Assembly: GCF_016863395.1 (NCBI RefSeq)
Contig: NZ_BOOU01000058.1
Location: 62,001 to 126,000 of the forward strand
Origin: Sphaerisporangium rufum
Lineage (GTDB): Bacteria; Actinomycetota; Actinomycetes; Streptosporangiales; Streptosporangiaceae
Reading direction: 5' to 3'
Length of the DNA stretch: 64,000 bases
The notes under the pieces were generated by a model. The model was given only the letters and a program-made list of their open reading frames with translations, was not told the DNA's origin and made no database searches. Shown one piece after another: positions 44,336 to 62,882 of this stretch. Position 1 is the first letter of the stretch, and the number at the start of each line of letters is the position of its first letter. A program made the translations under genes and the position numbers.

Positions 44336-44504
44336 ATTCCTGATGATAACTTGCGAAACCTGGGAATGAGAGGAGAGCGCGTCCGAGTCCGCCGGCTGCG
44401 GATCGGCGCGCGTCACCGGGCGGGAACGACTGATGCCGCATGCCCACCTGTCACCCTTGTACGCGGCTCGGCTGCCGAGCGAATAAGGGAGGGCGTTCCA
44501 CGGA

Positions 44505-45981: not shown

Positions 45982-46018
45982 TTATAGGAGTACAGTTATT
46001 AGAACTGTACTCCTATAA
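45982..46018. promoter_or_regulatory. Large AT-rich palindrome with 16-bp arms
   Basis: TTATAGGAGTACAGTT, loop ATTAG, AACTGTACTCCTATAA: perfect 16-bp arms, ending 12 nt before the ATG of the DUF234 ATPase. It is far more AT-rich than its surroundings. It could be an operator for a dimeric regulator, or an RNA hairpin over the ribosome site. Confidence 0.75.
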
Positions 46019-46030
46019 ACTGAGGGTGAA

Positions 46031-47503: not shown

Positions 47504-47599
47504 CCGGCGTCGGCCACCATGATCACCTGGCGGTCGTGTCGTTCCGGACTCGTCGCCGGAAATCGTGAGATGCCCTGAGATCACTGGAAAGGGGAGGGA

Positions 47600-48274
47600 A
47601 TGCAGGTCCGACGGCTCCATGACTGGCCCGCCACCGTCGCCGAGGCGGAGGCGATCCAGCAGCGATTCCGGCCGCTCGTCGAGCTGGACGAGCCGGGGCC
47701 GGACCAGGTCGAACTGGTCGCGGGCCTGGACGTGGCGTACTCGGCGGGGGACGAGCGGGTCACCGCCGCGGTGGTCGTGCTGCGCGTTCCGGCGCTGGAG
47801 GTCGTGGAGCGGGTGGTCGTCTCCCGGCCGGTGCGGTTCCCGTACGTGCCCGGCCTGTTCGCCTTCCGCGAGCTCCCGGCGCTGGTCGAAGCACTGGAGA
47901 AGCTGAGCACGACGCCGGAACTGCTGATCTGCGACGGATACGGGCTGGCCCACCCGCGCCGGTTCGGCCTGGCCTGCCACCTGGGCGTCCTGGCCGGCCT
48001 GCCCACGATCGGCGTGGCGAAGACCGCGTTCATCGGCACCTACCAGACGCCCGCGCCCGAGCGGGGCTCCTGGTCGCCCATCATGGACGGCGACGAGGTC
48101 GTCGGCCGAAGCCTGCGAACCCGGTCCGATGTCAAACCGGTGTTCGTCTCCCAGGGACACCGCGTCGGCCTGGACAACGCCTGCCGCCACGTCCTCCGGC
48201 TCACTCCCGCCTACCGCCTCCCCGAACCCATCCGCCAGGCCGACCACCTGTCCCGCACCGGGCAGGACGCCTGA
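47600..48274 (+). CDS. nfi: Endonuclease V (deoxyinosine 3'-endonuclease)
   Basis: A 224-residue repair nuclease that nicks next to deoxyinosine. Active-site segments are GLDVAYS (first Asp), FRELPALVEAL (Glu), LICDGYGLAHPRRFGLACHL (second Asp and His) and the Lys in GVAKTAF. The wedge motif is SRPVRFPYVPGLFAFRE. Length is normal for the family. GGGGAGGGA directly precedes the ATG at 47600. It is single, with its own probable promoter in the 96-nt gap after the ATPase. Confidence 0.95.
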   Translation: MQVRRLHDWPATVAEAEAIQQRFRPLVELDEPGPDQVELVAGLDVAYSAGDERVTAAVVVLRVPALEVVERVVVSRPVRFPYVPGLFAFRELPALVEALEKLSTTPELLICDGYGLAHPRRFGLACHLGVLAGLPTIGVAKTAFIGTYQTPAPERGSWSPIMDGDEVVGRSLRTRSDVKPVFVSQGHRVGLDNACRHVLRLTPAYRLPEPIRQADHLSRTGQDA

Positions 48275-48394
48275 CATCTCGGTGCGCCCCGGCCGGGTGC
48301 GACCGGCGGCTCCGGCCCGGCCCTGTGCGGGGCACCCGGCTCCGCTTGCCCGGCCTCGTGCGTGAGTCACCGGTGATCGGGTAGCCGGTGCGGT

Positions 48395-48729
48395 ATGGCG
48401 ATGACACGGTTGCTCGCGCAGATGACGATCGCCGACCTCGAACCGGCCATCAAGTGGTACGCGACGCTGTTCGGCCGGGATCCCGACGCCCGGCCCATGG
48501 ACGGCCTGGCCGAGTGGCATCTGGCGCCCACCTTCGGCTTCCAGGTGTGGGCGGACGCCGAACGCGCCGGCCGCTCCACGATGGTCGTGGACGAGTCCGA
48601 CTGGACGACCTCGCCGCCAGGTTGACCGGTGACGGCATCGATCATTCCGGCGTCCAGCAGGTCACCGCCGGGCGGGTGCTCACCGTGACCGACCCGGACG
48701 GCAACAGCATCGTGTTCTCGGGGACGTGA
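48395..48729 (+). pseudogene. Glyoxalase/bleomycin-resistance-like gene with frameshift
   Basis: The start reads MTRLLAQMTIADLEPAIKWY and GFQVWADAERAGRSTMVVDE, a glyoxalase/VOC half-domain, but frame 1 stops at 48623-48625. The missing second half (LDDLAARLTGDGIDHSGVQQ, TVTDPDGNSIVFSGT) continues in another frame after about 48598-48603, consistent with loss of one base. Either a pseudogene or an assembly error; the intact protein would be about 111 residues, a usual VOC length. Confidence 0.75.
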
Positions 48730-48744
48730 CCTTGGCGACACAGA

Positions 48745-50142
48745 TCAGGGAATCGGGTCGGTGAGGTGGCGATCGTAGAGGTGGCCGAATTCGGATGAGG
48801 CGCCGGCGGCTTGGCGGAGTGGTGCCAGCTCTTGGAGGGTCCGGCGGGAGCCGCCGATGTGCGGCAGCAGGGCCAGGCCCTCGGTCAGGGCTTCGCTCTT
48901 GGCGCCGCTCGCCAGCAGGGCGGTCGCCAGGCAGGCGTGGTAGTACGTCCGGTTGCGCGGGCCGATGGCCGGCTCTCCGAGCAGGCGCTGGAAGCGGTCG
49001 GCGGCGCGCACGGGGCTGCCGAGGGTCATCGTGGTCAGACCCTCGAAGTAGGTGAGCGTCGGCTCGGTGATGAACGCGGTCCAATCCGGGTCGTCATCGT
49101 GCGGACCGCGTTCCACCTCACGCCAGGCGGCGGCAAGGGCGGCCCGGCAGGCGGTCCGGTCGCCGAGAACGGCGTGCGCGGTGGCCTCGCGTACCGCGAG
49201 CACAGCGTGCACCCGGGGCGTCGCCCAGCGGCGCGCGGCCTCCCTGCCTATCAAGACCGCCCGCAGCGCCTCCCGGGCCCGGCCGGGGCGTGAACGGGCC
49301 AGCCGGACCGCGTGCATCGCCCGATAGGAGGCGACGTTGACCCGGAGTTCGTCGTCGCCGGCCTGCTCGGCGTACATCGCGGCCTCGCCGTACAGCCGCC
49401 GGGCAAGCTCGTGGTCGCCGGAGTCGTAGGCGAGCCAGCCCGCACATAGGTGGAGGGCCCCGGCCGCCGACACCAACCGGCGGCCGATCGCCTCGGTGTA
49501 GTCGGCCTCGTCCAGCATGCGGCGCACCCGGGTCACCTGGTGCAGCGCGAGCGGTAGCAGCAGGCGTCCCCCCATTCGTTGGTCATCGGCGTACAGCCGC
49601 CGGACGACGGCATCGAGCTGCCGCAACTGGACCGGGGTGATGCGGCGGGGGATGCTCGAAGAGCCCCAGGACACTCCGGTGGCGAGACCACCGGCCAGGA
49701 CGGCGGCGAAGTGACGGCGGTCCATCTCCATATCCCCATATACGCCCTCGATGTCCTTGACCGCCAGGGGTGAGCCCAGCAGCAGCGGGGTCAGGGCGTG
49801 GCGGGGCATGTCGATGGCGTCGGCGAACCGGAGCAACTCGCGGATGTCGTACAGGGTGTGCCGGGTGCCGTTCTCGACGCGGTTGACGGTGCTCTGTGAC
49901 CAGCCGACCAGACTCGCGAACTGGAGCTGGCTGAGGCCCATGGCGGTGCGGACCAGGGCGGTGAATCCGGCCAGATCGCCGGCGGCGAGCGCCTGGCGCA
50001 CCGGCATACTGTCCCACGACCATGACGGGGCGGCCGGGTGCTCTCCACGGGCCGCCCGCAGGCAGGGCGCGCACACCGGATCGTGGTTGTATCGGCTCAG
50101 CCGAGTCGCTCGGCACCCAGGGCACAGCCGGTCAGCACTCAC
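48745..50142 (-). CDS. XRE-family regulator with N-terminal zinc ribbon and TPR-like region
   Basis: A 465-residue protein. Residues 1-30 hold two CxxC pairs (CPGCRATRLSRYNHD and CAPCLR), a likely zinc ribbon. The helix-turn-helix is at about 65-110 (MGLSQLQFASLVGWSQSTVN). A MEMDRRHFAAVLAGGLATGV segment follows, then a helical repeat region (ELARRLYGEAAMYAEQAGDD). This layout is common in actinobacterial regulators paired with small HATPase proteins, such as the divergent gene at 50323. GTG 50142 has GGAGAG 5 nt upstream. Confidence 0.85.
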   Translation of the reverse strand: MSADRLCPGCRATRLSRYNHDPVCAPCLRAARGEHPAAPSWSWDSMPVRQALAAGDLAGFTALVRTAMGLSQLQFASLVGWSQSTVNRVENGTRHTLYDIRELLRFADAIDMPRHALTPLLLGSPLAVKDIEGVYGDMEMDRRHFAAVLAGGLATGVSWGSSSIPRRITPVQLRQLDAVVRRLYADDQRMGGRLLLPLALHQVTRVRRMLDEADYTEAIGRRLVSAAGALHLCAGWLAYDSGDHELARRLYGEAAMYAEQAGDDELRVNVASYRAMHAVRLARSRPGRAREALRAVLIGREAARRWATPRVHAVLAVREATAHAVLGDRTACRAALAAAWREVERGPHDDDPDWTAFITEPTLTYFEGLTTMTLGSPVRAADRFQRLLGEPAIGPRNRTYYHACLATALLASGAKSEALTEGLALLPHIGGSRRTLQELAPLRQAAGASSEFGHLYDRHLTDPIP

Positions 50143-50322
50143 CCGATCTCTCCTCCACCCCCGCCGCCGGGCGCGTCACCCTACGGACGGCGCCTGCGGG
50201 CGGGCGATGCCAGTCTGGCATCACTCCTTGTGATCGATCGATGACGTTCGGGCGTTTCGGCGGAAGCTCCCCGGCTGGATGCTGAAAGCCGTCGAAGAAG
50301 CGGTTACCTGAGGAGGGGTTCG

Positions 50323-50763
50323 ATGCCGTCCGGCCCGCGTATGACTCATGCCTTCACCGTGGCGTCCACCGTGGACCAGGTGCCGGTCGCCCGGCGTGCG
50401 GCGCGGCGGGTGCTCGCCTCCTGGGGTGTCGGTGGCGATCTCGCGTACACGGCCGCCCTGATCGTCACCGAGCTGGTGGCCAACGTGGCCGAGCATGCCG
50501 CCGATGCGTCACCGGCCGCGACGGTTCTGCTCGCCGCGGACGACTGGTGGCTGACCGTGTCGGTGCACGATGCCAGCCCGCGCCTGCCTCGAGCGTTGAC
50601 CGTCCCCTACGGCGACGGCGGCCGGGGGCTGCGCATGGTCATGCTGCTGGCCGAGGATGCCGGCGGCCGGCACACGGTCGAGCCGACCCTCGAGGGAGGC
50701 AAGCACATCGTGGTGCACCTCCCGCTCGGCAAGCACACGGTCGTCGCGCGCCGCTGCGGCTAG
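50323..50763 (+). CDS. HATPase_c (RsbW/SpoIIAB-like) ATP-binding protein
   Basis: A 146-residue GHKL ATPase: the N box is LIVTELVANVAEHAADASPA, and the G boxes are SVHDASPRLPRALTV and YGDGGRGLRMVMLLAEDAGG. Actinobacteria carry many of these single-domain proteins, in part anti-sigma kinases and in part regulators working with XRE partners; the divergent XRE gene fits. AGGAGG lies 6 nt before ATG 50323. Its TAG stop overlaps the stop of the convergent DUF4143 gene within a CTAG. Confidence 0.88.
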   Translation: MPSGPRMTHAFTVASTVDQVPVARRAARRVLASWGVGGDLAYTAALIVTELVANVAEHAADASPAATVLLAADDWWLTVSVHDASPRLPRALTVPYGDGGRGLRMVMLLAEDAGGRHTVEPTLEGGKHIVVHLPLGKHTVVARRCG

Positions 50764-52025
50764 CGCGGGTCTTCGCCGGCTTCCGGCGCTGTCGTCCACA
50801 GCGTGGAGATGGGCAGGCAGGTCAGGCCATCACCGAAGCTCAGCGACTCCTCGCCGCAGTACAGGACGAAGCCCGCGCGGAACCGAGGTCCGAGGCGTCG
50901 TTGCAGGAGTTTCAGGCCGCGAAAATCGTCCGCACGTACGGTCTCGGCCGCCTTGACCTCGATGCCGATTATCCGACCGGCGTTGTCCTCCAGAAGCCCG
51001 TCCACCTCGTACTGATCGCGATCTCGGTAGTGGTAGAGCCGTGCCGAGGTTCGAGACCAGGTGAGCTGCCGGGCGAGCTCGCCGAGCACGAAGTTCTCCA
51101 GCAGCCCGCCGAGCGCGGTATCAGAGGTCGCCTCGCCGGTCAGGTGGTCCGCGAGCCCGGAGTCGACGAAGATGACCTTCGGAGTGGCCACCGCCCGGGT
51201 CGTCAGGTTCGACGACCAGCCCGGTATGCGGCGAATCAGGTAAATCGTTTCCAGGATCTCCACGTAGTGCCGGGTGGTGCTGGCAGGGATGCCCAGCTCG
51301 CCGGCCAGCCGGTTGACGCTGAGCAGCCCGCCGGTCTGGGCCGCGAGCAATGAGACCAGCCGCCGCATGTCGCCGGCCTTGGTGATGTCGGCGACCTGCT
51401 TGACGTCCCTGCTGAGCAGGTCGGCGACGTACGCCTCGTAGAAGCGCTGCCGCCGCCGCGGCGTCGCGCGGCGCAACGCTTCCGGATAGCCGCCGCGGGT
51501 GGCCCTGGCGAGGTAGTCCTTGCGTCGCAGCGTCCATGGTTCGCCGCGCAGGTCGGCGCCGGCGGCGAACGCGGCGTCCACGAAGCCGTCCGGAGTGCCG
51601 TCGATCTCACCTTGGGACAGCGGCCACAGCTCGACGGTCTCGGATCGACCCGGCAGCGTGTCGGGAAGGCTGTTCAGGGCGAGGAACCTCGCCGATCCGG
51701 TGAGCAGAAATCGCCCAGGACGCGGATCGCGATCGACGAGATGCTTGACCGCCAGCCACAGGTCCGGCACGCGCTGCACCTCGTCGATGAGCATCAGCCC
51801 GTCATGGCGGACGAAGCGGATGGGATCCTCCCCGGCCGCGGTCCGCGTGACGGGGTCGTCGAGAAACCTGGCGACGCCGTTCTGTCCCTGGCGCAGCACG
51901 ACCTCCGCGAGCGTGCTCTTCCCGACCTGGCGAGCCCCGTTGATCACAACCACCCGGGTGTCCGCCAGCGCTTCGACGACCAGCTCAGCCGCCCGCCGAG
52001 GTACGTAATCCGTGGCCGCTCGCAC
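50760..52025 (-). CDS. AAA ATPase with DUF4143 domain
   Basis: A 421-residue protein: Walker A INGARQVGKSTLAEVV, Walker B GLMLIDEVQRVPDLW and sensor TGSARFLAL in an AAA_14 domain. A winged-helix-like part is at about 235-280 (LAGELGIPASTTRHYVEILE), and the C-terminal DUF4143 domain is nuclease-like (LLENFVLGEL, YEVDGLLED, IIGIEVKAAE). Family role is unknown. The frame opens at 52097 inside 23-bp repeats; I use GTG 52025, which lies 6 nt after a TACGCT -10-like box, so probably leaderless. Confidence 0.85.
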   Translation of the reverse strand: MRAATDYVPRRAAELVVEALADTRVVVINGARQVGKSTLAEVVLRQGQNGVARFLDDPVTRTAAGEDPIRFVRHDGLMLIDEVQRVPDLWLAVKHLVDRDPRPGRFLLTGSARFLALNSLPDTLPGRSETVELWPLSQGEIDGTPDGFVDAAFAAGADLRGEPWTLRRKDYLARATRGGYPEALRRATPRRRQRFYEAYVADLLSRDVKQVADITKAGDMRRLVSLLAAQTGGLLSVNRLAGELGIPASTTRHYVEILETIYLIRRIPGWSSNLTTRAVATPKVIFVDSGLADHLTGEATSDTALGGLLENFVLGELARQLTWSRTSARLYHYRDRDQYEVDGLLEDNAGRIIGIEVKAAETVRADDFRGLKLLQRRLGPRFRAGFVLYCGEESLSFGDGLTCLPISTLWTTAPEAGEDPR

Positions 52026-52045
52026 CAGCGAAGCGTAGCATGCAT

Positions 52046-52160
52046 TGACAGTCTGCCGAGGTTCCGACCGACAATCTGCCGAAGGGCCAGCCGGCAATCT
52101 GCCGAAGGAGTGGCTGACAATCTGCCGAAGTGCCGACCGACGATCTGCCGGTGTGGCCGG
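52046..52160. repeat. Five 23-bp direct repeats upstream of the DUF4143 ATPase
   Basis: Units start at 52046, 52069, 52092, 52115 and 52138, all exactly 23 bp apart, with core ACAATCTGCCGAAG and variable ends; the first and last are most diverged. They end 20 nt before the chosen ATPase start. This is an iteron-like array, a candidate binding site for a regulator or for the ATPase itself. The rest of the 280-nt gap to 52305 shows no gene. Confidence 0.8.
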
Positions 52161-52305
52161 GACCGCGCGCAGGTCGCCGGGACGGGAGGTTGATCAGGGC
52201 GGGCGGTCGGGCGGATTCGGCGCCGGGTCCGGTAGGCGGGCGCGGGTATCGCGATCTGGGCGGATGGGCGGGGGAGATCCGGAATTGGCGCTAGGGTGGC
52301 CGGCT

Positions 52306-52746
52306 ATGGCGCGTTTTGTCATGCGCGTGCTGGCGCCGTCCCGGCTCCGGCGCGCCGTTCTCGGGCGGTTCGACACGCGGTACGTCACCCGGGCCGATCA
52401 CCGGCAGGACGTGCGGGACGCGCTGTGGGAGGTGCAGGCGCTCAAGCGGGAGCTCACCGCGCTGCGGCGCGAGATGGAGCGGCTCGGGCGTGACGTGAAA
52501 CGGGCGGCGCCGGCCGGCCCGGATCCGGCGGTCAAGGCCAGGGCCGAGGAGGCGCACCGGCTGGCCACCGAGACCGCCGCCGCGGTCGACCACCTGCTGC
52601 AGGCCGAGGTGCTCCTCTGGCAGGCCGTGGACGGCGTCCGCGACCAGGCCGCCGGGTTTGGTCAGGTCACGGGGTCCGGCGAGGGGCAAGGGGCGGACGA
52701 TGGGCGGGCGGCGGGGACGCCGGCCGGCGGGGTTCCGGCGCCGTGA
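52306..52746 (+). CDS. Small coiled-coil protein, first gene of the PP-loop operon
   Basis: A 146-residue protein without a recognised family. A basic N-terminus (RVLAPSRLRRAVLGRFD) precedes a long coiled coil at about 45-75 (EVQALKRELTALRREMERLG) and a second helical stretch (RAEEAHRLATETAAAVDHLL). The last ~30 residues are Gly/Ala-rich. A TAGGGT box lies 8 nt before the ATG and there is no clear ribosome site, so it may be leaderless. It overlaps the PP-loop gene by 4 bp (GTGA), so it belongs functionally with it. Confidence 0.65.
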   Translation: MARFVMRVLAPSRLRRAVLGRFDTRYVTRADHRQDVRDALWEVQALKRELTALRREMERLGRDVKRAAPAGPDPAVKARAEEAHRLATETAAAVDHLLQAEVLLWQAVDGVRDQAAGFGQVTGSGEGQGADDGRAAGTPAGGVPAP

Positions 52747-54032
52747 GGGTCGGCTGGACGGTCGAGGACGGGCGGTGGCGGCTGCGGTTGCGGCTGGACC
52801 CGGCCGAAGGGCTCACCGGCACGGTCACCGACGGGCAGCGGGTGGTGCTGGCCACCGACACCTGCCATATCCGGCTGCCCGACGCGGCGGCCGGCGGCTC
52901 CGGCGCGGGCCTGCCGGTGACGGCTTCCGGGCCGGCCCCGGCCGAGCCGGCGGAGCCGCATGGTGATCTGCGGGCGCTGGCCGCCTGGACGGTCGCGGCG
53001 CCGTGGACGGCCGGGCGGATCGTGTTCGACCGGCCGATCTCGCCCGCGCTGGCCGAGGCCTTCCGCGAAGGATGGGGCATCGACGCCGGCCCGGTCGGCG
53101 AGGATCCGCGCCCGGCCGGCTCCCGCCTGGCGATCTCCTACAGCGGCGGCGCCGACTCGGCGGCGGTGGCGGCGATCCTGCCGGACGCGCCGCTGGTGCA
53201 CTTCCGCCGGGTGCCGCACCCCCGGGTGCCGAACCGCTGGACGCACTACCGGTCCGACGTGCTGGCCGGCCTGGCCCGGGAGACCGGCCGGGACGTCACC
53301 GTCGTCGAGTCGGACCTGGAGTTCCTGCTGCGCGAGCCCCGGCCCGGCTACCCCGAGCATCATGCGGTGCTCGCCGGGGCGGTCCTGCTGGCCGGCCGGA
53401 TGGACCTGGGCGGGCTGGCGCTCGGGTACGAGATCGGCTCGCGCTGGCTGGGCGGCGGCCGGTACGTGCACCGTTTCACCCCCGACAACCCCATGTGGTC
53501 GCCGCACGGCCGGTGGGGACGGCTGTTCGCCGCCGCCGGGCTGCCGCTGGTGCTGCCGGCCGGTGGCATCAGCGAGGCGATGACGATGCGGCTGGCGCTG
53601 AACTCCAAGCTGCGCGACCAGGTGCGCTGGTGCCTGCGCGGCGACGGCGCCGGCCCGTGCGGCCGGTGCGGCAAGTGCCTGTACAAGGAGCTCATCCAGG
53701 CGGCGGTGGAACGGCGCCCGCTGAACACCACGATCACCGCCGACCGGCCCGTCGCGCGCAAGTGGCAGCAGCCGCCGCCGTACGGTGGACAGGAGATGAT
53801 CGAGTACGGCTGCGCCCGGGTCCCGGGCATCGAGCACACCCCGTTCGCGGTGGCCGCCGGGCACCTGAAGGCGACCGTGGAGTCCACCCGCTGGCTGGAG
53901 CGGTGCTACCCTCCCGCCGTCGCGGAGATCCCGCGGCCGTGGCGGGCCGCGGTCGAGAAGGTCATGGCGGACGAGTTCGGGTTCATGGACGAGCAGGACG
54001 TGCGGCGGGTGGAGAGCTGGGGCCGGCGATGA
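52743..54032 (+). CDS. PP-loop ATPase with Cys cluster (DUF6395-like)
   Basis: A 429-residue protein. Residues 1-100 form a beta-rich N-terminal domain. The PP-loop is ISYSGGADSAAVAAILPDAP (SGGxDS), followed by a Rossmann-like ATP pyrophosphatase core. A Cys cluster, GPCGRCGKCLYKELIQAA (CxxCxxC), recalls QueC-type zinc sites, and further Cys are at EYGCARVPG and LERCYPP. PP-loop enzymes adenylate a carboxylate or carbonyl for attack by nitrogen or sulfur. I believe it belongs to DUF6395; function undetermined. It overlaps both neighbours by 4 bp. Confidence 0.78.
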   Translation: MRVGWTVEDGRWRLRLRLDPAEGLTGTVTDGQRVVLATDTCHIRLPDAAAGGSGAGLPVTASGPAPAEPAEPHGDLRALAAWTVAAPWTAGRIVFDRPISPALAEAFREGWGIDAGPVGEDPRPAGSRLAISYSGGADSAAVAAILPDAPLVHFRRVPHPRVPNRWTHYRSDVLAGLARETGRDVTVVESDLEFLLREPRPGYPEHHAVLAGAVLLAGRMDLGGLALGYEIGSRWLGGGRYVHRFTPDNPMWSPHGRWGRLFAAAGLPLVLPAGGISEAMTMRLALNSKLRDQVRWCLRGDGAGPCGRCGKCLYKELIQAAVERRPLNTTITADRPVARKWQQPPPYGGQEMIEYGCARVPGIEHTPFAVAAGHLKATVESTRWLERCYPPAVAEIPRPWRAAVEKVMADEFGFMDEQDVRRVESWGRR

Positions 54033-54871
54033 AGGTGTACGTGTCGATCGACATGGAGGGCGTGACCGGGCTGACCGACCCGGAGGAGATGCACGCCGGC
54101 GGCCGCGGCTACGAGCGCGGCTGCGAGCTGATGACCGCGGACGCCAACGCGGTGGTCGCGGGTGCCTTCGAGGCCGGTGCGACCGCGGTGGCCGTCAACG
54201 ACGCGCACGGCTCCACCAAGAACGTCCGGGTGGATCTGCTGGACGAGCGGGCCACCCTGATCCGCGGGCCGGGCAAGCCGATGCGGATGGCCCAGGGCCT
54301 GACCGGGGAGTTCGACGCGGCCTGCTTCGCCGGCTACCACGCCCGGGCCGGCGTCCGGCACGGGGTGCTCAACCACACCTGGATGGGCAAGGAGATCCAG
54401 AACGTCTACCTGAACGGTGAGGTGTGCGGGGAGACCCGGCTGGTCGCCGCGTGCGCCGGCTCCCTCGGCGTGCCGGTGGCCCTGGTGACCGGCGACGAGG
54501 CGGTCTGCGAGGAGGCGCGCGAGCTGCTCGGCGACGTGGAGACGGTCGCGGTGAAGACCGGCGTGGACCGGTTCGCCGCCGAGCTGCTGCCGCCCGCCGT
54601 CGCGCAGGCCCGCATCCGCGAGGGCGCCGCCCGGGCGCTGAACCGGCTGGCCGACTTCCGGCCGTACGAGCTGGCGGCGCCGTTCACCCTCGGGGTGGAG
54701 TGGAACTCCACCGCCATCGCGGCCGGCTGCGCGCTCATCCCGGGCACCCGGCTGGCCGGGCCGCGGCACACCGAGTTCACCGGCGAGGACTACCGCGACA
54801 TCATGGCCCTGCTCGGCATCTACGCGATGATCGCCGGCCAGGTGGCCTGCGGCAGCGGCGTCTACGGCTGA
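54029..54871 (+). CDS. M55-family D-aminopeptidase-like metalloprotease (DppA-like)
   Basis: A 280-residue protein starting MKVYVSIDMEGVTGLTD. Asp8, Glu10, His60 (NDAHGS) and His104 (FAGYHARAG) fall at the same numbers as the zinc ligands of B. subtilis DppA, and NHTWMGKEIQ with NGEVCGE supplies the next His and Glu. DppA cleaves D-Ala-containing dipeptides. It has no signal peptide, so it acts in the cytoplasm. ATG 54029 overlaps the PP-loop stop as ATGA. Its place between a PP-loop enzyme and an amine oxidase suggests handling of unusual amino-acid conjugates. Confidence 0.9.
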   Translation: MKVYVSIDMEGVTGLTDPEEMHAGGRGYERGCELMTADANAVVAGAFEAGATAVAVNDAHGSTKNVRVDLLDERATLIRGPGKPMRMAQGLTGEFDAACFAGYHARAGVRHGVLNHTWMGKEIQNVYLNGEVCGETRLVAACAGSLGVPVALVTGDEAVCEEARELLGDVETVAVKTGVDRFAAELLPPAVAQARIREGAARALNRLADFRPYELAAPFTLGVEWNSTAIAAGCALIPGTRLAGPRHTEFTGEDYRDIMALLGIYAMIAGQVACGSGVYG

Positions 54872-54876
54872 CCCGG

Positions 54877-56505
54877 ATGCAGGCAGACAGGCCGCCGCGG
54901 CCGGCGGGCGCGCTCACGCGCCGCTCGCTGCTCGTCGGAATCGGTGCCGCGGGCGGGGCCGGGGCGATGTACGCGGCGATGGGCGTGCTCGGGCTGGCCC
55001 CGACCGAGCGGACCGCGCCGGTGCCGCCTGCGAGCGGCGCGGCGCCGACGCCGTTCGTGCCGCCCCGGCGCTCGGACTTCACGCTGCGCGGCGACGGCGC
55101 CCCGGCGTCGGTGCTGGTGCTCGGCGCCGGCGTGGCCGGGCTGGCGGTCGCCTACGAGCTCGGCAAGGCCGGGTACCACTGCACGGTGCTGGAGGCCCGC
55201 GACCGGGTCGGCGGGCGCAGCCTGACCCTGCGCGGCGGCGACGTGCTCGAGGAGACCGCGGCGCCGGGCGGCGGTGCCGGCGCGCGGCAGCGGGTGACGT
55301 TCGGGGAGGGCACCTATTTCAACGCCGGCCCGGCCCGGATCGCGCAGTGGATGGTGACGCTGGACTACTGCCGCGAGCTGGGCGTGCCGCTGGAGGTGTT
55401 CGTCAACGCCAACTCCTCGGCGTACGTCCTCACCGAGGGCATGAAGGGGCCGGTCCGGGTGCGCACCGCGCGCGCCGACGCCTACGGGTACATCTCCGAG
55501 CTGCTGGCCAAGGCGACCGACGAGGGGGCGCTGGACGCCCGGCTCACCGCCGCCGACAAGGAGCGGCTGCTGGACTTCCTGACCCATTTCGGGGACATCG
55601 GCGGGTCGCTGGCCTACACCGGCGGCGAGCGGCGCGGCTTCCGGGTCGATCCGGGGGTCGGGGCCGGCACCGGGCTGGGCCGGGTCCCGTCGCTGACCGA
55701 GGTGCTGAGCCAGGGGCTCGGCCGCATGCTGACCATGGACGCCGGCTACGAGCAGGCGATGCCGATGTTCCAGCCGGTCGGCGGCATGGACGCCATCGTC
55801 CGGGCGCTGGCCGCCCGGGTGGGCGCCGATCGGATCCGGACCGGCGTCCAGGTCACCGGGATCACCGGCCGGCCGGACGGGGTCGAGGTGACCGTGGCGG
55901 GCGGCGCGCCGGTGCGGGCGGACTACTGCGTGGCGACGCTGCCGCCGCACGTGCTGGCGAAGATCCCCGGCAACCTGGACGCCGGGGTACGGGCGGCGCT
56001 GGCCACGCCGATCCCGATGTCGGCCGGCAAGATCGGCCTGGAGTACGGCCGCCGCTGGTGGGAGATCGAGGACCAGGTGTACGGCGGGGCCACCGAGACC
56101 GACCTGGACATCGGGCACATCTGGTACCCGTCCTACGGCTACCACGCCGAGCGCGGCCTGGTCGTCGGCTACTACAACACCGGCCCGGCGGCCGAGGCGT
56201 ACGACGGGCTGGCCCACCGCGAGCGGCTGCGCCGGGCGCTGGCCGCCGGGCGGCGGGTGCACGGCGCGAAGTACGGGCGGGACATTCTGGCCGCCACCTC
56301 GATAGCCTGGCGGCGGCAGCCGCACATCGAGGGCGCCTGGGTTCGGTGGCCGTCCACCGGCGGGCTGTCGCTGCTCCAGCGGCCCGCCGGCCGGGTGTAC
56401 TTCGCCGGTGACTGGCTGACCCACCTGATCGCCTGGCAGGCCGGCGCCCTGGAGTCCGCCCGTAAGGTGGTGACCGACCTCCATCACCGCGTCCTGAAGT
56501 CCTGA
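54877..56505 (+). CDS. Tat-exported FAD-dependent amine oxidase
   Basis: A 542-residue flavoenzyme. A Tat signal is visible: LTRRSLLVGIGAAGGAGAMY (RR at 15-16). FAD binding begins VLVLGAGVAGLAVAYELGKA and EARDRVGGRS; the C-terminal motif GRVYFAGDWLTHLIAWQAGA is that of L-amino-acid and amine oxidases. It should work outside the membrane, folded with FAD, releasing peroxide and ammonia. ATG 54877 is 5 nt after the M55 stop; the longer frame from 54424 is inside that gene. Substrate unknown. Confidence 0.9.
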   Translation: MQADRPPRPAGALTRRSLLVGIGAAGGAGAMYAAMGVLGLAPTERTAPVPPASGAAPTPFVPPRRSDFTLRGDGAPASVLVLGAGVAGLAVAYELGKAGYHCTVLEARDRVGGRSLTLRGGDVLEETAAPGGGAGARQRVTFGEGTYFNAGPARIAQWMVTLDYCRELGVPLEVFVNANSSAYVLTEGMKGPVRVRTARADAYGYISELLAKATDEGALDARLTAADKERLLDFLTHFGDIGGSLAYTGGERRGFRVDPGVGAGTGLGRVPSLTEVLSQGLGRMLTMDAGYEQAMPMFQPVGGMDAIVRALAARVGADRIRTGVQVTGITGRPDGVEVTVAGGAPVRADYCVATLPPHVLAKIPGNLDAGVRAALATPIPMSAGKIGLEYGRRWWEIEDQVYGGATETDLDIGHIWYPSYGYHAERGLVVGYYNTGPAAEAYDGLAHRERLRRALAAGRRVHGAKYGRDILAATSIAWRRQPHIEGAWVRWPSTGGLSLLQRPAGRVYFAGDWLTHLIAWQAGALESARKVVTDLHHRVLKS

Positions 56506-56660
56506 AGCACCGGTGGTCCTGAAGCACCGGTGGTCCCGAAGGCCGGTGGTCCCGAAGGCCCGGCGGTCCGGACGCCCCGAAGGCCCGTGGTCCGGACCCT
56601 CCGAAGCTCAGCGGTCCGAACCCCCGAAGCCCGACAGTCCCGAAGTCCCGAAGTCCCGAA
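56491..56660. repeat. GC-rich degenerate tandem repeats after the amine oxidase
   Basis: About ten units starting TCCYGAAG, 8-24 bp long, many of the form TCCCGAAGGCCCGGCGG. They begin in the last codons of the amine-oxidase gene and run to the ribosome site of the YbaK-like gene. Function unknown; the array may affect mRNA structure or be a mutational expansion. Confidence 0.6.
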
Positions 56661-56671
56661 GGAGATGCCCC

Positions 56672-57205
56672 ATGAGGATCGGCACCCTCGACTGGGTCCC
56701 CGCCGCGGACCGGCCCGAGCTGCTCGCCGCGCCGGTCGCCCGCGCCCTGGGCGGCCTGGGCGAGCCGGCGGGCGAGGTCGCCGTGGCGGCGATCGACCCG
56801 GCGCTGGCCGACACCGCCGCCTTCTGCGAGCGGTACGGCGTGGCGCTGGAGGACTCCGCCAACTGCGTGATCGTGGCGGCCCGGCGCGGCGCCGAGACCC
56901 GGTACGCCGCCGTCATGGTGCTCGCGACCATGCGCGCCGACGTCAACGGGGTGATCCGCCGGCAGCTGGACGCCCGGAAGGCGTCCTTCGCCCCGCAGGC
57001 GGACGCGGTGGCGATGACGGGCATGGAGTACGGCGGCATCACCCCGGTCGGGCTGCCCGAGGAATGGCCGGTGCTGGTGGACGCGGCGGTGGCCGCCCGG
57101 CCGCACGTGGTGATCGGTAGCGGGGTCCGCGGATCCAAGCTGGCGCTGCCCGGGGCGGCGCTGGCCCGGCTCAAGACGGCCGAGGTGCTGAGCCTGGCGC
57201 AGTGA
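56672..57205 (+). CDS. YbaK/aminoacyl-tRNA deacylase-like protein
   Basis: A 177-residue YbaK/ProX-fold protein: ADTAAFCERYGVALEDSANC followed by VIVAARRGAETRYAAVMVLA and GMEYGGITPVGLPEEWPVLV, with the conserved GG-x-PxG-type loop and GSGVRGSKLAL near the end. Such domains hydrolyse mischarged aminoacyl-tRNAs in trans; the specificity here is unknown. AAGGAG lies 7 nt before ATG 56672. It may be the last gene of the PP-loop/M55/oxidase operon, though a 166-nt repeat-filled gap separates it. Confidence 0.82.
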   Translation: MRIGTLDWVPAADRPELLAAPVARALGGLGEPAGEVAVAAIDPALADTAAFCERYGVALEDSANCVIVAARRGAETRYAAVMVLATMRADVNGVIRRQLDARKASFAPQADAVAMTGMEYGGITPVGLPEEWPVLVDAAVAARPHVVIGSGVRGSKLALPGAALARLKTAEVLSLAQ

Positions 57206-57761
57206 CCGCCGGCCCCGGTCCGGGATCGCGCGCGGTCCGACCGGTGGCCCGCCGGGCCCCGCGCCGTGGTTGCCGGGGTGGTGACCAGGGAGGAGTCCGG
57301 CGGGTCGCCCGTCCGTCCACGGCGGCCGGGTGAATGAAGGGCGGCGTGCGGAAGAGACTTTCCCGATATGGGAAACCCTTGGGGCCGGTTGGGCCGTTGT
57401 ACAACCGGGAATGTGGCCTCAGGGTTCATCTCATGGGCGGGGTTTAAGCCGGTATGGTGCTACGTGCCGTCGACGGCCGCGGGCGAGCGGGCGACCAGCG
57501 CTCCCGTGGCCGTGCCGGAGAGCGAGAACGCCGTCGCGGGAGTCGGGGAGGGGAGCGGGGCCGGCCGGGGGGGCTCGGCCACGCGCCCGCCGGTGTGGGT
57601 GCCCGCCAGCCGGGAGGGCATCCGGTCGTGTCGGTGCGGCGTGCCATCATTTGGCGGCCGGTGTTTTCCGTGACGGCCGTTGTGCACGGTCCGCAAAATG
57701 TGACAATTAGAGCATGGTGCTGCATTCCGGGCAGCAGTCCCGGGGCATCGCCGGAGATCAG
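57206..57761. other. 556-nt gap without a convincing gene; kinase promoter
   Basis: Short frames here lack ribosome sites and protein-like composition. Visible elements are an inverted repeat CCGGTTG...CAACCGG at about 57387-57411 and a promoter-like pair TTGTGC (57680-57685) and ACAATT (57703-57708) with 17-nt spacing. The pair would start transcription near 57714, upstream of the first kinase gene. Confidence 0.5.
57680..57708 (+). promoter_or_regulatory. Candidate promoter of the kinase array
   Basis: TTGTGC and ACAATT with 17-nt spacing. Predicted start near 57714 coincides with an in-frame ATG, so a leaderless product 16 residues longer than the annotated kinase is possible. Confidence 0.4.
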
Positions 57762-60695
57762 ATGAATCAGCACGACCGATTGGGCCCCTACCGGCTGCTG
57801 CGGCGGCTCGGGGAGGGCGGCATGGGTGTGGTCCATCTCGCGCTCGACCCGCGCGACCGCCAGGTCGCGGTCAAGGTCCTGCGCTCGGAGGTCGCCGGAG
57901 ACGACCTGGCGCGGCGCAGGCTCGCCCGCGAGGTGGAGACCATGCGGCGGGTGCGCAGCAGGCACATCGCCGAGGTGCTCGACGCCGACGTCACCGGCAG
58001 CCGCCCCTACATCGTCACCCGCTATGTCGCCGGCATGCCGCTGGACGACGCCGTCAAGCAGGACGGCCCGCTGGACACGCCCTCGCTGCTGCGCGTCGCG
58101 CACGGGGTGGCCGAGGCGCTCGCCGCCGTGCACGCCGCCGGCGTCATCCACCGCGACCTCAAACCGGCCAACGTGCTGATCCTCGACGGCGAGCCGGTGC
58201 TCATCGACTTCGGCATCGCGCAGGCGGTGGACGCCACCCGGCTCACCCAGACCGGCATGTTCATCGGGACGCCCGGCTACCTGGCCCCGGAGATCATCGA
58301 GGGGCACGAGGCCGGGCCCGAGGTGGACGTGCACGCCTGGGCCGGCACCATGCTGTACGCCGCCACCGGCCGCCCGCCGTTCGGCAAGGGCACGCTGGAG
58401 ATGGTCTTCTACAACATCACCGCCGGACGGGCGAACGTCGACGCCGCCCCGGCCGTGCTGCGTCCCGTGCTGCGCGAGGCGTTCCGGCGTGACCCGGCCC
58501 GGCGGCCCACCGCGGCCGAGCTGGCGGCGCGGCTGGCCCGGATGGTGCCCGGGCCGGGCCAGACCCGGCCGCCGGTTCCGGACGAGATCATCACGGTGCC
58601 GGACACCTCCGCGGTGACCGGCGCACCGGTCACCGGCACCTCGCTGCGCCCTGGCGAGCCCGCCGTCCCGGCCGCCTCCGGTGCCGCGGCGCCGGGAGGC
58701 GGCCCGTCCAGTGCCGTTCCCGACGGCGCGGCGTCCGGATCGTCCGGCGGTGCCCCGGCCGGGGGCGTTCCACCGGGTGCCGTCCGGGCCGGTGCCGGCC
58801 TGGCCGCCTTCGGGCCGGCCGCCGGTGCGGCCGCCGGGGTCGCGTCCGGCCCTGCCGCCGGGGTCGCCGGTTCCGCCGCCGCGGGCTCGGTCGCCGCCCC
58901 GTCCGGCGCCGGACCTGGCACGCCCACCGGCGCCGCCGCGGGTGTCGGCGCCGCCGGCCCGGGCGCCGCGTCCGGTGACGCGGCCGGCGAGTTCGTCTCC
59001 CTGCTCGACGGGCCGCCCGCCCCCGGCGGCGATCCGTTCCCCACCGTCCGGGTGACCGGTGACGAGCTGCGCCGCGCGGGCATCCCCCGCGACCTGGCCG
59101 GCCCGCCCGTTCCCCCCGGTCGCACCGGCCCGGCCGGTCCGCCGGGTTCCTCCGGATCCGCCCGCCCGGCCGGCCGGGCCGGTTCCGGTCCGGCCACCGG
59201 CGAGAAGGGCGCCGCGCCCGGCCCGGCCCGGTCCGGTGGCGCGCCGCCGGGCGGGTCCAGGGCGGGCGACACCGAGGGTGACGTGCCCACCTGGAACGCG
59301 CCGCCCGGGGCGTCCCGGCCGTGGCCGGCCGACCCCGGGCCGCAGGACCAGGGCGAGGTGCCGACCCGCCGGGTGCGCTCCGGGGAACTGGACGAGCTGG
59401 CCGCCCGGCTCAAGGCGGGCCACCCCGCGCCGGGTGTCACGCCGCAACCCGGGACCACCGGCCCGGCCGGGCCGGGCACGCCGGGCGGCGGCGCCACGCC
59501 GGGTACGCCGGGCCGGCCCGCCACGTCCGGCACGCCGCGTGCCGGCGCGGCGGGCGGGCCGTCCGGGGCACGCACGCCCGGTGGCGTCGCCGGCCCCGGC
59601 ACGCCGAAGTCGCCGGCGACCGGGCCGTCGGGTGGCGTGGCGGGGGTGGCGCCCGCGCCCGCCGATGGCGACGAGGAGCCGGAGACCAGGCGGGCCCGCC
59701 CGGCGGCCGGCGGCCGTTCGGGCACGTCGCCGGCGGGTGGTGCGCGAGGCACGTCCCCGGCGGGTGGTCCGCACGGTAGGTCCCCGGCCGGTGCCTCCGG
59801 TGGGTCCGCGGCGGGTGGTGCCCGCGATGCGCCCCCGGCCGGTTCGTCCCGGGCGCCGGAGCCGGGGCGGGCCCGGCCCGACGAGGCGGAGGCACGGCCC
59901 TACCATCAGGCGCTGTTCGAGCAGGCCCTCGACGTCTTCGAGCGGACGCCGCACGTGCGGCACGCCGAGCCGGCGGAGCGCGAACCGCTCGAGCACGCGC
60001 CCACCGTCCACCTGCCGCCGGGGCAGGCGGCCCTCGGCCAGGCGTCGACCGTCCACCTGCCGCCGGAGGCGACCCCGCTGGGCGCCGCCGCGCTGCTGCG
60101 CCGCCCGCCGGTGTACGGCCTGGCGGCCTGGCTGGCGCTGTCCACCGTCGCGTTCGCCGCGGTGATGGCGCCGGTGCTGGTCGGGGTGGTGGTCCTGCTG
60201 GTCGTGGTGCTGCTCCGCGCTGCGCACCTCGCCCAGCCGGAGCTGGCGGCCGTCCGGCCGGCCGGCGCGGCCGCGGGCGACGTGGTGCGGGTGCTCGGCC
60301 ACCCGGCCGCGCTGGTGAAGTCGCTCGGGGTGACGCTCGCGCTGGTGCCGGTGTCGCTGTTCCTCGCCGTGCCGGTGATGATGGCGGCGTCCCTGCTGCC
60401 CGCGTCGCTGCCCACCGTGCTGGGCCTGGGGGTCGCCGTCGTGCTGTGGGTGGCGGCCACCGGGCCGGGGGTGACCGGGCCGCGCCGCCAGCTCACGTTG
60501 ATGCTCGCCGCCGCGTTCCCGTCCCGGAGCACGGCCACCGCGCTCGCCGGCGGGCTCGGCGTGCTGGCCGCCCTGGTGCTGGTGCTGGTGGTGGCGATGC
60601 TCGCCGGGGCGTTCGGTGAGGCAGTCTGGAGTCCGATGAACGTAGACGGCTGGCTGGATCAGCTCAGACATCTCGGCGTGCGGAGGCCGCGGTGA
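57762..60695 (+). CDS. Ser/Thr protein kinase 1 with disordered linker and multi-pass membrane tail
   Basis: A 977-residue kinase. The domain is residues 1-270: glycine loop LGEGGMGVVHLALD, Lys in VAVKVL, catalytic HRDLKPANVL, DFGIAQ and GTPGYLAPEI. About 500 residues of Gly/Ala/Pro/Ser-rich linker follow, then a C-terminal region of about five helices (WLALSTVAFAAVMAPVLVGV, VVVLLVVVLLRAAHL). No PASTA or other sensor domain is visible. ATG 57762 has GGAG 5 nt upstream and fits its paralogs; ATG 57714 is the alternative. First of three tandem paralogs. Confidence 0.9.
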   Translation: MNQHDRLGPYRLLRRLGEGGMGVVHLALDPRDRQVAVKVLRSEVAGDDLARRRLAREVETMRRVRSRHIAEVLDADVTGSRPYIVTRYVAGMPLDDAVKQDGPLDTPSLLRVAHGVAEALAAVHAAGVIHRDLKPANVLILDGEPVLIDFGIAQAVDATRLTQTGMFIGTPGYLAPEIIEGHEAGPEVDVHAWAGTMLYAATGRPPFGKGTLEMVFYNITAGRANVDAAPAVLRPVLREAFRRDPARRPTAAELAARLARMVPGPGQTRPPVPDEIITVPDTSAVTGAPVTGTSLRPGEPAVPAASGAAAPGGGPSSAVPDGAASGSSGGAPAGGVPPGAVRAGAGLAAFGPAAGAAAGVASGPAAGVAGSAAAGSVAAPSGAGPGTPTGAAAGVGAAGPGAASGDAAGEFVSLLDGPPAPGGDPFPTVRVTGDELRRAGIPRDLAGPPVPPGRTGPAGPPGSSGSARPAGRAGSGPATGEKGAAPGPARSGGAPPGGSRAGDTEGDVPTWNAPPGASRPWPADPGPQDQGEVPTRRVRSGELDELAARLKAGHPAPGVTPQPGTTGPAGPGTPGGGATPGTPGRPATSGTPRAGAAGGPSGARTPGGVAGPGTPKSPATGPSGGVAGVAPAPADGDEEPETRRARPAAGGRSGTSPAGGARGTSPAGGPHGRSPAGASGGSAAGGARDAPPAGSSRAPEPGRARPDEAEARPYHQALFEQALDVFERTPHVRHAEPAEREPLEHAPTVHLPPGQAALGQASTVHLPPEATPLGAAALLRRPPVYGLAAWLALSTVAFAAVMAPVLVGVVVLLVVVLLRAAHLAQPELAAVRPAGAAAGDVVRVLGHPAALVKSLGVTLALVPVSLFLAVPVMMAASLLPASLPTVLGLGVAVVLWVAATGPGVTGPRRQLTLMLAAAFPSRSTATALAGGLGVLAALVLVLVVAMLAGAFGEAVWSPMNVDGWLDQLRHLGVRRPR

Positions 60696-62689
60696 AGGCG
60701 GGAGAGACGATGCCGGAGACGCTGGACAGGCTCGGGCCGTACCGGCTGCTGCGCCGGCTCGGCGAGGGCGGGATGGGCGTGGTCCATCTCGGCCTGGACG
60801 AGCAGGGCCGCGAGGTCGCGGTCAAGGTGCTGCACCCGCACGTGGCGGCCGATCTCAAGGCCCGCGACCGCCTCACCCGTGAGGTGGAGACCATGCGCCG
60901 GGTGCGCAGCCCGCGGGTCGCCGAAGTGCTGGACGCCAGGCTCACCGGGTCGGCGCCCTACATCGTGACCAGGTTCGTGCCGGGCCGCACGCTGGAGGAG
61001 ACCGTCCTGTCGGACGGCCCGCTGCCGGACCAGGAGGTGGTGAAGCTCGCCCGCGGGCTGGCGGAGGCGCTGGTCGCCATCCACGCCGCGGACGTGATCC
61101 ACCGCGACTTCAAGCCGGCCAACGTGATGCTGGTGAACGGCGAGCCGCTGGTGATCGACTTCGGCATCGCCCATCTGGTGAACGCTACCCGGCTGACCCA
61201 GACCGGCATGTTCGTCGGCACCCCGGGCTACCTGGCGCCCGAGATCATCCGGGACGAGGAGATCACCCAGCAGGCCGACGTGCACGCCCTGGCCGCCACG
61301 GTGTTCTTCGGCGCCACCGGCAAGCCGCCGTTCGGCACCGGCACCTTCGAGTCGGTCTGCTACAACATCATGGAGGGCCGGGCCAACATCGACCAGGCGC
61401 CGGCGTGGCTGCGCGGCTGGCTGCGCGCCGCGTTCGACGTCGACGCCGCGGCCCGGCCGGACGCCCGGCGGCTGCTGTCCATGGCCAAGACCCTGGACCC
61501 GAACGTGACGGTGCTGCGGGAGACGGCCGCGGACGGCCGCACCCGCCGGCTGGACCCGGGCACCCGGGTGCTGGACGCCGACCCGGGCCGCACCCACGTG
61601 CTGGGCGGCGCGGTGCCCGACGGCACCGCGATGCTCGACGAGCCGGCGCCGACCAGGCGCACCGCGCCGGCCCGCGAGGACAGCTACTCCGACCTGCTGC
61701 CGCCGGTGAACTACGCCGAGCCGGAGCGCCGGCGGGCCCGGCAGGAGGCCCCGCCGCCCGCCCCGCCGGCCGCGCCCGCCGGGTACGCCGCGCCGCCGCC
61801 GGCCCCCGGGCAGGGCCCGGCGCCCTACCCGCCGCCCCGCCCGCACGCGGGCATGCCGTACGCCGACCAGCGGGTCGCCGGGCCGCCGCCGCCCGCCTAC
61901 CGCGAGCCCCCGCCTGCCTACCGCGAGCCCCCGCCCGCCTACCGCGAGCCGGTGCCCAAGGCCCCGCCGCCCGCGCCGTACCGGCCGGAGCGGCGGCCCG
62001 AGCCGGAGCCGCGCCCGGACCGTCCCCGGTACCGGGGGAGCCACCCGCTGGTGTCCGCCGGGCTGCTGGCCATCGCGGTGGCCGGCGCCCGGATGCTGCC
62101 GGTGCTGTTCAGCGTGCTGATGGTGGTCGTGGTGCTGTGCCTGCGCGTCGGCGAGTACCTGTTCGGCGACCTGGCCGAGCGCCGCTCGGTGCGGGGCAGC
62201 AGTGCCGGCGACCCGTTGATGGCCGTGCTCGGCACGCCGTGGGCGCTGATCAGGGCCGCGCTGGTGACGCTGGTCGCGACCCCGCTGGCCCTGATGCTCG
62301 GCATGTGCGTGTGGGGCGCGCTGCGATTCGCCGGCGGCATGACGACCGACACCGCGGCCGCCTGGGGCGCCGCCGCGTTCGTCGGCGGCCTGTTCCTGCT
62401 GCCCGGCGGCAAGAAGCCGCGCCGGGCGGTGGCCCGCGGGCTCAGCGCGGCCATCCGCAGCCCGGGCGCGGGCATGGTCGTCGTGCTGATCGTGGGCACG
62501 CTGGCCTTCTTCGCGGTGATCAGCGCGCTCACCGCCGTGCCGTCCTGGACGCCCTGGGAGCCGCCCTCCCAGGCGATCAGCGACCTCGGCGCCCAGGCGC
62601 GCAGCAGCGCGATGGGCATCATCGGCGGCCTGATCCAGGACCTGCTGAAGGACCTGGGTCTCGGCTTCCTGGCCTTCTGGGGCAGGTGA
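60692..62689 (+). CDS. Ser/Thr protein kinase 2 with membrane tail
   Basis: A 665-residue paralog of the preceding kinase. The kinase domain has LGEGGMGVVHLGLD, VAVKVL, HRDFKPANVM (Leu of HRDLK replaced by Phe), DFGIAH and GTPGYLAPEI. The Pro-rich linker contains three 21-bp-coded PPAYREP repeats (about 61889-61951). Five or so membrane helices follow (LVSAGLLAIAVAGARMLPVL, LMVVVVLCLRVGEYLF). GTG 60692 overlaps the upstream stop (GTGA); ATG 60710 is the alternative. Coupled to kinase 1, so both are made together. Confidence 0.9.
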   Translation: MKAGETMPETLDRLGPYRLLRRLGEGGMGVVHLGLDEQGREVAVKVLHPHVAADLKARDRLTREVETMRRVRSPRVAEVLDARLTGSAPYIVTRFVPGRTLEETVLSDGPLPDQEVVKLARGLAEALVAIHAADVIHRDFKPANVMLVNGEPLVIDFGIAHLVNATRLTQTGMFVGTPGYLAPEIIRDEEITQQADVHALAATVFFGATGKPPFGTGTFESVCYNIMEGRANIDQAPAWLRGWLRAAFDVDAAARPDARRLLSMAKTLDPNVTVLRETAADGRTRRLDPGTRVLDADPGRTHVLGGAVPDGTAMLDEPAPTRRTAPAREDSYSDLLPPVNYAEPERRRARQEAPPPAPPAAPAGYAAPPPAPGQGPAPYPPPRPHAGMPYADQRVAGPPPPAYREPPPAYREPPPAYREPVPKAPPPAPYRPERRPEPEPRPDRPRYRGSHPLVSAGLLAIAVAGARMLPVLFSVLMVVVVLCLRVGEYLFGDLAERRSVRGSSAGDPLMAVLGTPWALIRAALVTLVATPLALMLGMCVWGALRFAGGMTTDTAAAWGAAAFVGGLFLLPGGKKPRRAVARGLSAAIRSPGAGMVVVLIVGTLAFFAVISALTAVPSWTPWEPPSQAISDLGAQARSSAMGIIGGLIQDLLKDLGLGFLAFWGR

Positions 62690-62882
62690 CGACGGCCCGG
62701 ACACCGTTTCCCAAGGCCGCGCGCGTGGAAAAAGCTCAGCCGAGAGCCTTCGGCCGGGCCGCGGGACCGGCGCACCTGGCGGCGAGCCGCCGGCGCGCCG
62801 CAGCGCCGTGATGGCGGTCCACGCCGGCGGCGGGTGACGTGCGCGTCCTCGGCGCGCGGAGCGGTGATCCGGAAGGAGTCGC

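Follow-up and report, generated by a model that had tools for sequence, protein, structure and literature searches.

Introduction

Enzymes of the QueC fold have been described in phage defence, where protein modification was recently shown for Cap9 and proposed for QatC (PMC13279940). An ATP loop and a site of four cysteines are given as two hallmarks of QueC in a further source (PMC13329287). The stretch of DNA analyzed here, referred to as the window, comprises 64,000 nucleotides of Sphaerisporangium rufum (assembly GCF_016863395.1, contig NZ_BOOU01000058.1, positions 62,001 to 126,000 of the forward strand), and positions are counted from its first letter. At 52306–56505 it carries four overlapping or abutting genes for a small helical protein (cc), a PP-loop enzyme of the family DUF6395 (PF19932), an M55 D-aminopeptidase-like protein and a Tat-type flavin L-amino-acid-oxidase-like protein. 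Taken together, what emerges is a conserved operon in which mostly known enzyme families surround a single QatC-like enzyme that is so far uncharacterised.

In the literature collection searched, no paper for DUF6395 or PF19932 and no account of the operon was found. In shape QatC is the closest counterpart of DUF6395; the genes of this family nevertheless lie in a conserved operon and, at other sites, within glycan loci, so that it lends itself to comparison outside defence. It can now be given a probable type of chemistry and a partner open to experiment.

Fold and sequence motifs of DUF6395

The gene of the PP-loop enzyme (52743–54032, plus strand) was assigned by its Pfam match (DUF6395, E = 5.3e-67). 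An AlphaFold2 model built from 32 sequences (mean pLDDT 82.4) is composed of a beta-rich N-terminal domain, a QueC-like core and C-terminal helices. If this model is used as a Foldseek query, only two matches appear at E ≤ 0.001, and both are QatC chains. In VIA-align the top five rows are filled by QatC, QueC and Cap9 with Z-scores of 9.0–11.2: QatC reaches Z 11.2 (276 aligned residues, root mean square deviation 4.8, 12% identity), QueC follows with 9.7 and 9.4 and Cap9 with 9.0, and other PP-loop enzymes score at most 8.1. The model possesses both an N- and a C-terminal extension, and the QatC alignment spans its residues 1–370 only.

Both QueC hallmarks are found in the sequence. The ATP loop reads SGGADS (residues 134–139), and the form [S/G]GGxDS occurs in 38 out of 40 DUF6395 sequences. 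What the initial annotation had called a Cys cluster is indeed a four-Cys site (C297, C306, C309 and C312), invariant in nine aligned sequences; its zinc-type pattern, as judged from the sequence, is exactly C-x8-CxxCxxC in 24 of the 40 sequences and has a spacing of x7 or x9 in the other 16.

The sequence searches gave little beyond this. PF06508 (QueC) does not match at the locus at E 0.1, and in the whole genome it has one short match elsewhere (contig C14, E = 3.8e-6). The PP-loop protein has no NCBIfam match at E 0.1, including the N-acetyl sugar amidotransferase model, which we assume to be part of that collection. A PDB sequence search with the PP-loop profile returned nothing credible (best E 0.039). 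The QueC substrate motifs YxQxHxxE, VPxRN and YPDC each occur in none of the 40 sequences. QatC likewise lacks these motifs, and its reaction is described as unresolved (PMC13279940). Fold and motifs together make it very likely that DUF6395 is an ATP-dependent ligase of the QueC/QatC type.

Conservation and separability of the operon

A scan of named genomes yielded 106 relatives of the PP-loop protein, and all counts out of 80 refer to the best 80 of these 106. By their names 79 of the 80 loci belong to Streptosporangiaceae, a placement that we take for granted except for Sphaerisporangium and Nonomuraea, and one is named “Actinobacteria bacterium” (L050). Two of the loci, L073 and L083, come from one genome. 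The four genes and a fifth one for a YbaK-like protein occur in the same order on one strand at 63 of the 80 loci, and the arrangement is for this reason beyond chance. Not found around the 80 loci were cc once, M55 nine times, the oxidase five times and the YbaK-like gene nine times, where some absences are due to contig ends or an intervening insertion.

The initial annotation had described the junctions in the window as a GTGA overlap (cc and PP-loop gene), an ATGA overlap (PP-loop and M55 gene) and a gap of five nucleotides (M55 and oxidase gene), and these were confirmed, together with the coordinates, on the sequence. With start codons estimated by script, a stop/start overlap was counted for cc and the PP-loop gene in 54 of 79 loci, for the PP-loop gene and M55 in 45 of 71, and for the PP-loop gene and the oxidase in five of the seven loci without M55. 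The wider flanks are conserved as well, with enoyl-CoA hydratase (echA) at 63, ETF beta at 61 and protein kinases in 76 of the 80 windows; synteny alone is therefore no proof of a pathway. The echA open reading frame of these 63 relatives lies upstream and usually near cc. In the window about 14.6 kb of additional genes (37646–52305) separate echA (36875–37645) from cc, and glgE and glgP are located still further upstream.

In Sphaerisporangium album (L049, 11330–18547) an insertion parts cc and DUF6395 from the M55, oxidase and YbaK-like genes; judged by eye it encodes a regulator of the BTAD type and an RHS-repeat-like protein of very great length. A loss of M55 and oxidase at L029 and L049 was considered and rejected, as both are found about 14 kb away in genome G005.

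For the separability of the genes we drew a single sample of 150 genomes from the family, with counts per genome that are uncorrected for phylogeny and with an M55 protein regarded as close at 67% identity or more. Intact DUF6395 was present in 52 genomes, close M55 in 64 and the in-cluster oxidase in 58. All three coincide in 44 genomes, one of which (G567) has its DUF6395 gene at a different locus. The pair of M55 and oxidase without DUF6395 was found in nine genomes, DUF6395 and oxidase without M55 in five, DUF6395 and M55 without oxidase in three, M55 alone in eight and none of the three in 81, so that every pairwise separation occurs. The in-cluster oxidase is present in 49 of the 52 genomes with DUF6395 compared to nine of the 98 without, and close M55 in 47 of 52 compared to 17 of 98. 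In one genome (G458; L127, 7418–7612) DUF6395 is reduced to a remnant of 66 residues and the oxidase was not found, with M55 and the YbaK-like gene kept.

The earlier suggestion that the genes act together is thus borne out as far as their co-occurrence is concerned, which is genuine and has been kept within a single bacterial family. A single five-gene pathway does not follow, as the pairs among DUF6395, M55 and oxidase all separate. The observation named beforehand as speaking against such a pathway, genes found only separately in other genomes, was made at the loci seen outside the family but not inside it.

The cc protein

The first gene of the operon (52306–52746, plus strand) encodes a small protein with two long predicted helices, modelled at residues 29–67 and 74–123 (mean pLDDT 77.6, pTM 0.45). 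No Pfam family matches it above its cut-off; a match to Herpes_UL51 at 22.4 bits (E = 1.1e-4), below the cut-off of 25, was set aside as coiled-coil bias. The protein is present at 79 of the 80 loci.

The C-terminal helix (EAHRLA..ETA..LQ.EVLLWQ) goes with DUF6395. In all ten M55-oxidase loci without adjoining DUF6395 (L124, L125 and L145–L152; five each in two genera) cc is shortened to about 65 residues, directly precedes M55 and has lost this helix. The short form is under purifying selection, with dN/dS of 0 to 0.22 in 16 pairs. In five M55 loci that lack both oxidase and DUF6395 (L153–L157, two of them on short contigs) cc was not found. With a profile of cc, both of its halves were recognised next to DUF6395 in L129 (E = 8e-10) and in L028, a locus from another family of the phylum (E = 1e-18). 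These patterns link the C-terminal helix with DUF6395 and the N-terminal half with the lineage of M55 and oxidase. We regard it as probable that cc is a direct partner of DUF6395.

DUF6395 outside the main locus

In other genomes of the phylum sample DUF6395 is rare (one out of 395). In the class of that one genome nine of 247 genomes have it, seven of them over the cut-off. We collected 11 windows with DUF6395 off the main locus (L028, L123, L128, L129, L158, L159–L162, L163 and L083), where L083 is also counted among the 80. Beside these copies M55 and oxidase are absent in the windows seen, and glycosyltransferase genes are often nearby.

In L028 (6066–11690) four tandem DUF6395 genes and, on the opposite strand, a homologue of cc are surrounded by methyltransferase-glycosyltransferase, GT2 and epimerase genes and, as judged by eye, an ABC exporter. 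On a Priestia plasmid (L123) GalU, a glycosyltransferase, a pyruvyl transferase and UDP-glucose dehydrogenase are annotated 5–16 kb away on the other strand, the dehydrogenase at about 15 kb from DUF6395. In L128 and L129 the genes around DUF6395 encode glycosyltransferases, with a hom-like and a thrC-like gene on either side, and in L158 GT2, UDP-glucose dehydrogenase and a sugar transferase accompany it. The DUF6395 copies of L158 and L163 are fragments. One GT2 subfamily is common to L028, L128, L129, L158 and L161, that is five of the 11 off-locus windows compared to none of the 80.

The remaining windows look different. In L159–L162, all from one genus, DUF6395 stands with aldehyde dehydrogenase, aminotransferase and hydantoinase-like genes (by eye), and GT2 adjoins in one of the four. 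In Streptosporangiaceae bacterium NEAU-GS5 a second DUF6395 copy (L083, 9911–11233) has no cc, M55 or oxidase nearby. Whether the substrate of DUF6395 is a glycan or another component of the envelope appears evenly balanced to us.

Deazaguanine chemistry and phage defence

With one QueE query no match was obtained in 42 of the 52 genomes with intact DUF6395, including the genome of the window. QueE is no more common with DUF6395 (10/52) than without it (17/98, p = 0.82), and strong QueC matches (E below 1e-40) occur in seven of the 52. Given the absent substrate motifs and the 42 of 52 hosts in which QueE was not found, 7-carboxy-7-deazaguanine (CDG) is improbable as the substrate for most hosts, though a divergent QueE or salvage may supply it. 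Deazaguanine chemistry was set aside on the absent substrate motifs and the QueE distribution, and we consider it likely that DUF6395 is not a deazaguanine enzyme.

PADLOC gave no match for three DUF6395 proteins at E 1; within the protein set, the oxidase alone was matched, by a desaturase-type model (E = 2.4e-27). In PHROGs there was a QueC-like match to residues 281–313 of DUF6395, but a weak one (E = 0.015). No relatives were found in the phage collection and none were confirmed in viral contigs by pattern scans, on which grounds a mobile origin was rejected. Two entries of the plasmid collection matched, a Priestia plasmid and a Nonomuraea replicon 11.85 Mb in length. A Met-Gly start, as in the MGTS motif of the QatC partner QatB, is present in none of 79 cc proteins (starts estimated), and among nine scanned genes of the window there is no KAP NTPase or TatD nuclease of the qatA or qatD type.

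The amino-acid enzymes and neighbouring genes

The M55 gene (54029–54871, plus strand; Pfam Peptidase_M55, E = 2.2e-95) encodes a protein with D8, E10, H60, H104, H116 and E135 conserved in 72 of 72 aligned sequences. We assume from DppA that these are metal ligands or active-site residues. The alignment with DppA (1hi9) covers 258 of 280 residues at E = 1.1e-45 and retains the ligand residues; the NCBIfam equivalog cut-off for DppA is missed (207.5 vs 430 bits).

The oxidase gene (54877–56505, plus strand; Pfam Amino_oxidase, E = 1.2e-37) has the L-amino acid oxidase 2JAE, presumably of Rhodococcus opacus, as its nearest solved relative (E = 9.1e-133 over the catalytic domain). R154, which we take to be the carboxylate-binding arginine, and a tryptophan to which we likewise ascribe a role are conserved in 75 of 75 sequences. 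The proposed Tat export signal was recovered, with a twin arginine in 71 of 75 oxidases and a gap at this position in the remaining four. The protein is predicted to be L-amino-acid-oxidase-like.

The gene of the YbaK/INS-domain protein (56672–57205, plus strand; Pfam tRNA_edit, E = 1.6e-20) begins 166 nucleotides past the oxidase gene and is outside the cassette by our count. The label of a YbaK-like deacylase, given to it initially, is weak: where the lysine of APE2540 aligns, which we presume to be catalytic in the family, there is an asparagine, found by pattern in 66 of 71 relatives with five giving no pattern match. The equivalog cut-off of the YbaK Cys-tRNA(Pro) deacylase is missed as well (45.9 vs 153.25 bits). 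A match at E 0.001 exists in 148 of the 150 genomes, and strong matches (E below 1e-20) in 48 of the 52 genomes with DUF6395 and in 86 of the 98 without. As the gene is about as common without DUF6395 as with it, it is not specific to the cassette; it looks like part of an ancestral neighbourhood.

Further downstream follows a Ser/Thr protein kinase gene (57714–60695, plus strand), a conserved neighbour that we also count outside the cassette; kinases come after the cluster in 76 of the 80 relatives. It is the first of three consecutive Ser/Thr kinase genes (57714–63998), of which the first two contain long low-complexity linkers.

Discussion

The data establish the gene content, its coupling and separability, the fold class and motifs of DUF6395, the pattern of cc shortening and the glycan-type surroundings of several copies. 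In the mechanism that we infer, the elements of which are an adenylating ligase activity, binding by cc, a glycan substrate and a link to the amino-acid enzymes, cc and DUF6395 form a first module. A carboxylate would be activated with ATP at the SGGxDS loop and then coupled to an amine, and cc would work with the enzyme via its C-terminal helix. The substrate is probably other than CDG; the off-locus neighbourhoods point to a surface glycan, e.g. the amidation of a sugar carboxylate or its coupling to an amino acid. M55 and the exported oxidase would represent a second module that, by homology, may trim D-amino-acid peptides inside and oxidise L-amino acids outside. Translational coupling joins the two modules at most of the loci analyzed, yet each persists without the other, and the YbaK-like and kinase genes would be ancestral neighbours. 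That the second module acts in the same pathway as the first is a tentative view with somewhat less than even prospects. For the reading as a whole, namely a QatC-like ATP-dependent ligase pair of cc and DUF6395 that probably targets an envelope glycan and has two separable partners in the D-aminopeptidase and the exported L-amino-acid oxidase, we see an even chance.

Several observations weigh against it. The TM-scores to QatC are low (0.34), which indicates a common shape of DUF6395 and QatC and not close kinship, and the alignment ends at residue 370. A cc protein is undetected beside the Priestia copy and in L128, L158–L163 and L083, and the shortening of cc may stem from one or two deletions. 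The co-occurrence figures lack a phylogenetic correction. The GT2 queries were drawn from the same five loci that were counted, but these queries match each other across loci; the subfamily is absent in six of the 11 off-locus windows (L123, L159, L160, L162, L163 and L083), some cut by contig ends. A different glycosyltransferase family occurs in 35 of the 80 main-locus windows, so that glycosyltransferases nearby are not rare. An ortholog of GT2 is found in 49 of the 52 DUF6395 genomes compared to 11 of the 98 without, and nine of these 11 are short-cc genomes; it therefore follows the clade and not DUF6395 itself. In the genome of the window this ortholog is on another contig (L164). There, at 8643–13525, the GT2-type glycosyltransferase genes stand between thrC-like and hom-like genes, and the same region in L128 and L129 also carries DUF6395.

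One may ask whether the four or five co-transcribed genes of one bacterial family simply share a place and serve unrelated tasks. The conserved echA (63/80), ETF beta (61/80) and YbaK-like genes, for which there is no obvious functional link, fit such a view, and so does the separation of the genes in all pairwise ways; the overlap of PP-loop and oxidase genes retained in five of seven loci without M55 and the loss of half of cc where DUF6395 is gone speak against it, and we consider it unlikely, albeit with some weight. In a pathway in the sense of the initial annotation, the PP-loop enzyme would assemble an amino-acid conjugate and M55 would trim it, oxidation would follow outside the cell, and the YbaK-like deacylase would act as a safeguard. 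The bond-making family to which the fold of DUF6395 belongs and the 44 of 150 genomes that hold DUF6395, M55 and oxidase together would suit this pathway. It is nevertheless improbable in view of the separation of all gene pairs, the off-locus DUF6395 copies without M55 and oxidase in the windows seen, and a YbaK-like gene that does not track DUF6395 and lacks the lysine presumed to be catalytic.

A protein deazaguanylation or anti-phage system, in the manner of Cap9 with its CD-NTase or as proposed for QatBC, is suggested by QatC as the top structural match, which also works with a helical partner (PMC13279940). Against this stand the missing Met-Gly start of cc, the silence of PADLOC on the PP-loop protein, the 42 of 52 hosts in which QueE was not found, the phage collection and the pattern scans of viral contigs, which yielded no confirmed relative, and the absent QueC substrate motifs, though QatC lacks the latter too; we rate such a system as very improbable. 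Hardly any likelihood is left to a thiolation or sulfur transfer of the TtuA or LarE kind via the Cys cluster. TtuA, TilS and LarE chains do align with the model at Z 5.7–8.1, but QatC, QueC and Cap9 outscore them, and the cysteines are spaced as in the zinc site of QueC (PMC13329287). The earlier statement that a PP-loop enzyme with a Cys cluster can make or break an amide or thio bond is fair for the making of an amide-type bond, given the QatC/QueC/Cap9 fold.

Returning to the ligase pair, one may extend it to a bolder and rather unlikely proposal: DUF6395 and cc could be a QueC-superfamily conjugation system beyond nucleoside synthesis and phage defence, in which a carboxylate other than CDG is joined to an amine of an envelope glycan or of the helical partner, with the C-terminal helix of cc docking the enzyme. 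If true, the four tandem copies of L028 would be ligases that differ in specificity.

Comparison with known systems

M55 is homologous to DppA (1hi9) over 258 of 280 residues with the ligand residues present, below the equivalog cut-off; the oxidase is homologous to the presumed Rhodococcus opacus enzyme 2JAE in its catalytic domain, including the conserved Arg and Trp. For the PP-loop protein, N-acetyl sugar amidotransferases (WbpG and LpNASAT) share the PP-loop, a zinc tetracysteine site and a role in surface-glycan synthesis (PMC10607449), and differ in that the protein studied here has no NCBIfam match. Cap9 of type IV CBASS (9nto) has the core fold, ATP loop and cysteines in common with DUF6395; it differs by a median of about 185 residues, by QueC-type substrate motifs that are kept and by a CD-NTase partner (PMC13329287). 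With QueC (PF06508) DUF6395 shares the core fold, ATP loop and zinc-type cysteines, whereas it lacks the three substrate motifs and a PF06508 match at the locus, possesses extra N- and C-terminal parts and resides mostly in hosts in which QueE was not found. QatC (qatABCD; PDB 9y01 and 9y02) differs by an identity of 12%, by a C-x19 form of the cysteine site compared to mostly C-x8-CxxCxxC and by its system, in that the nine scanned genes of the window include neither a qatA- nor a qatD-type gene, cc does not begin with Met-Gly and PADLOC is silent on DUF6395. It is at the same time alike in its similar length, in the aligned N-terminal domain and core, in the SGGxDS loop and four-Cys site and in being encoded together with a helical partner.

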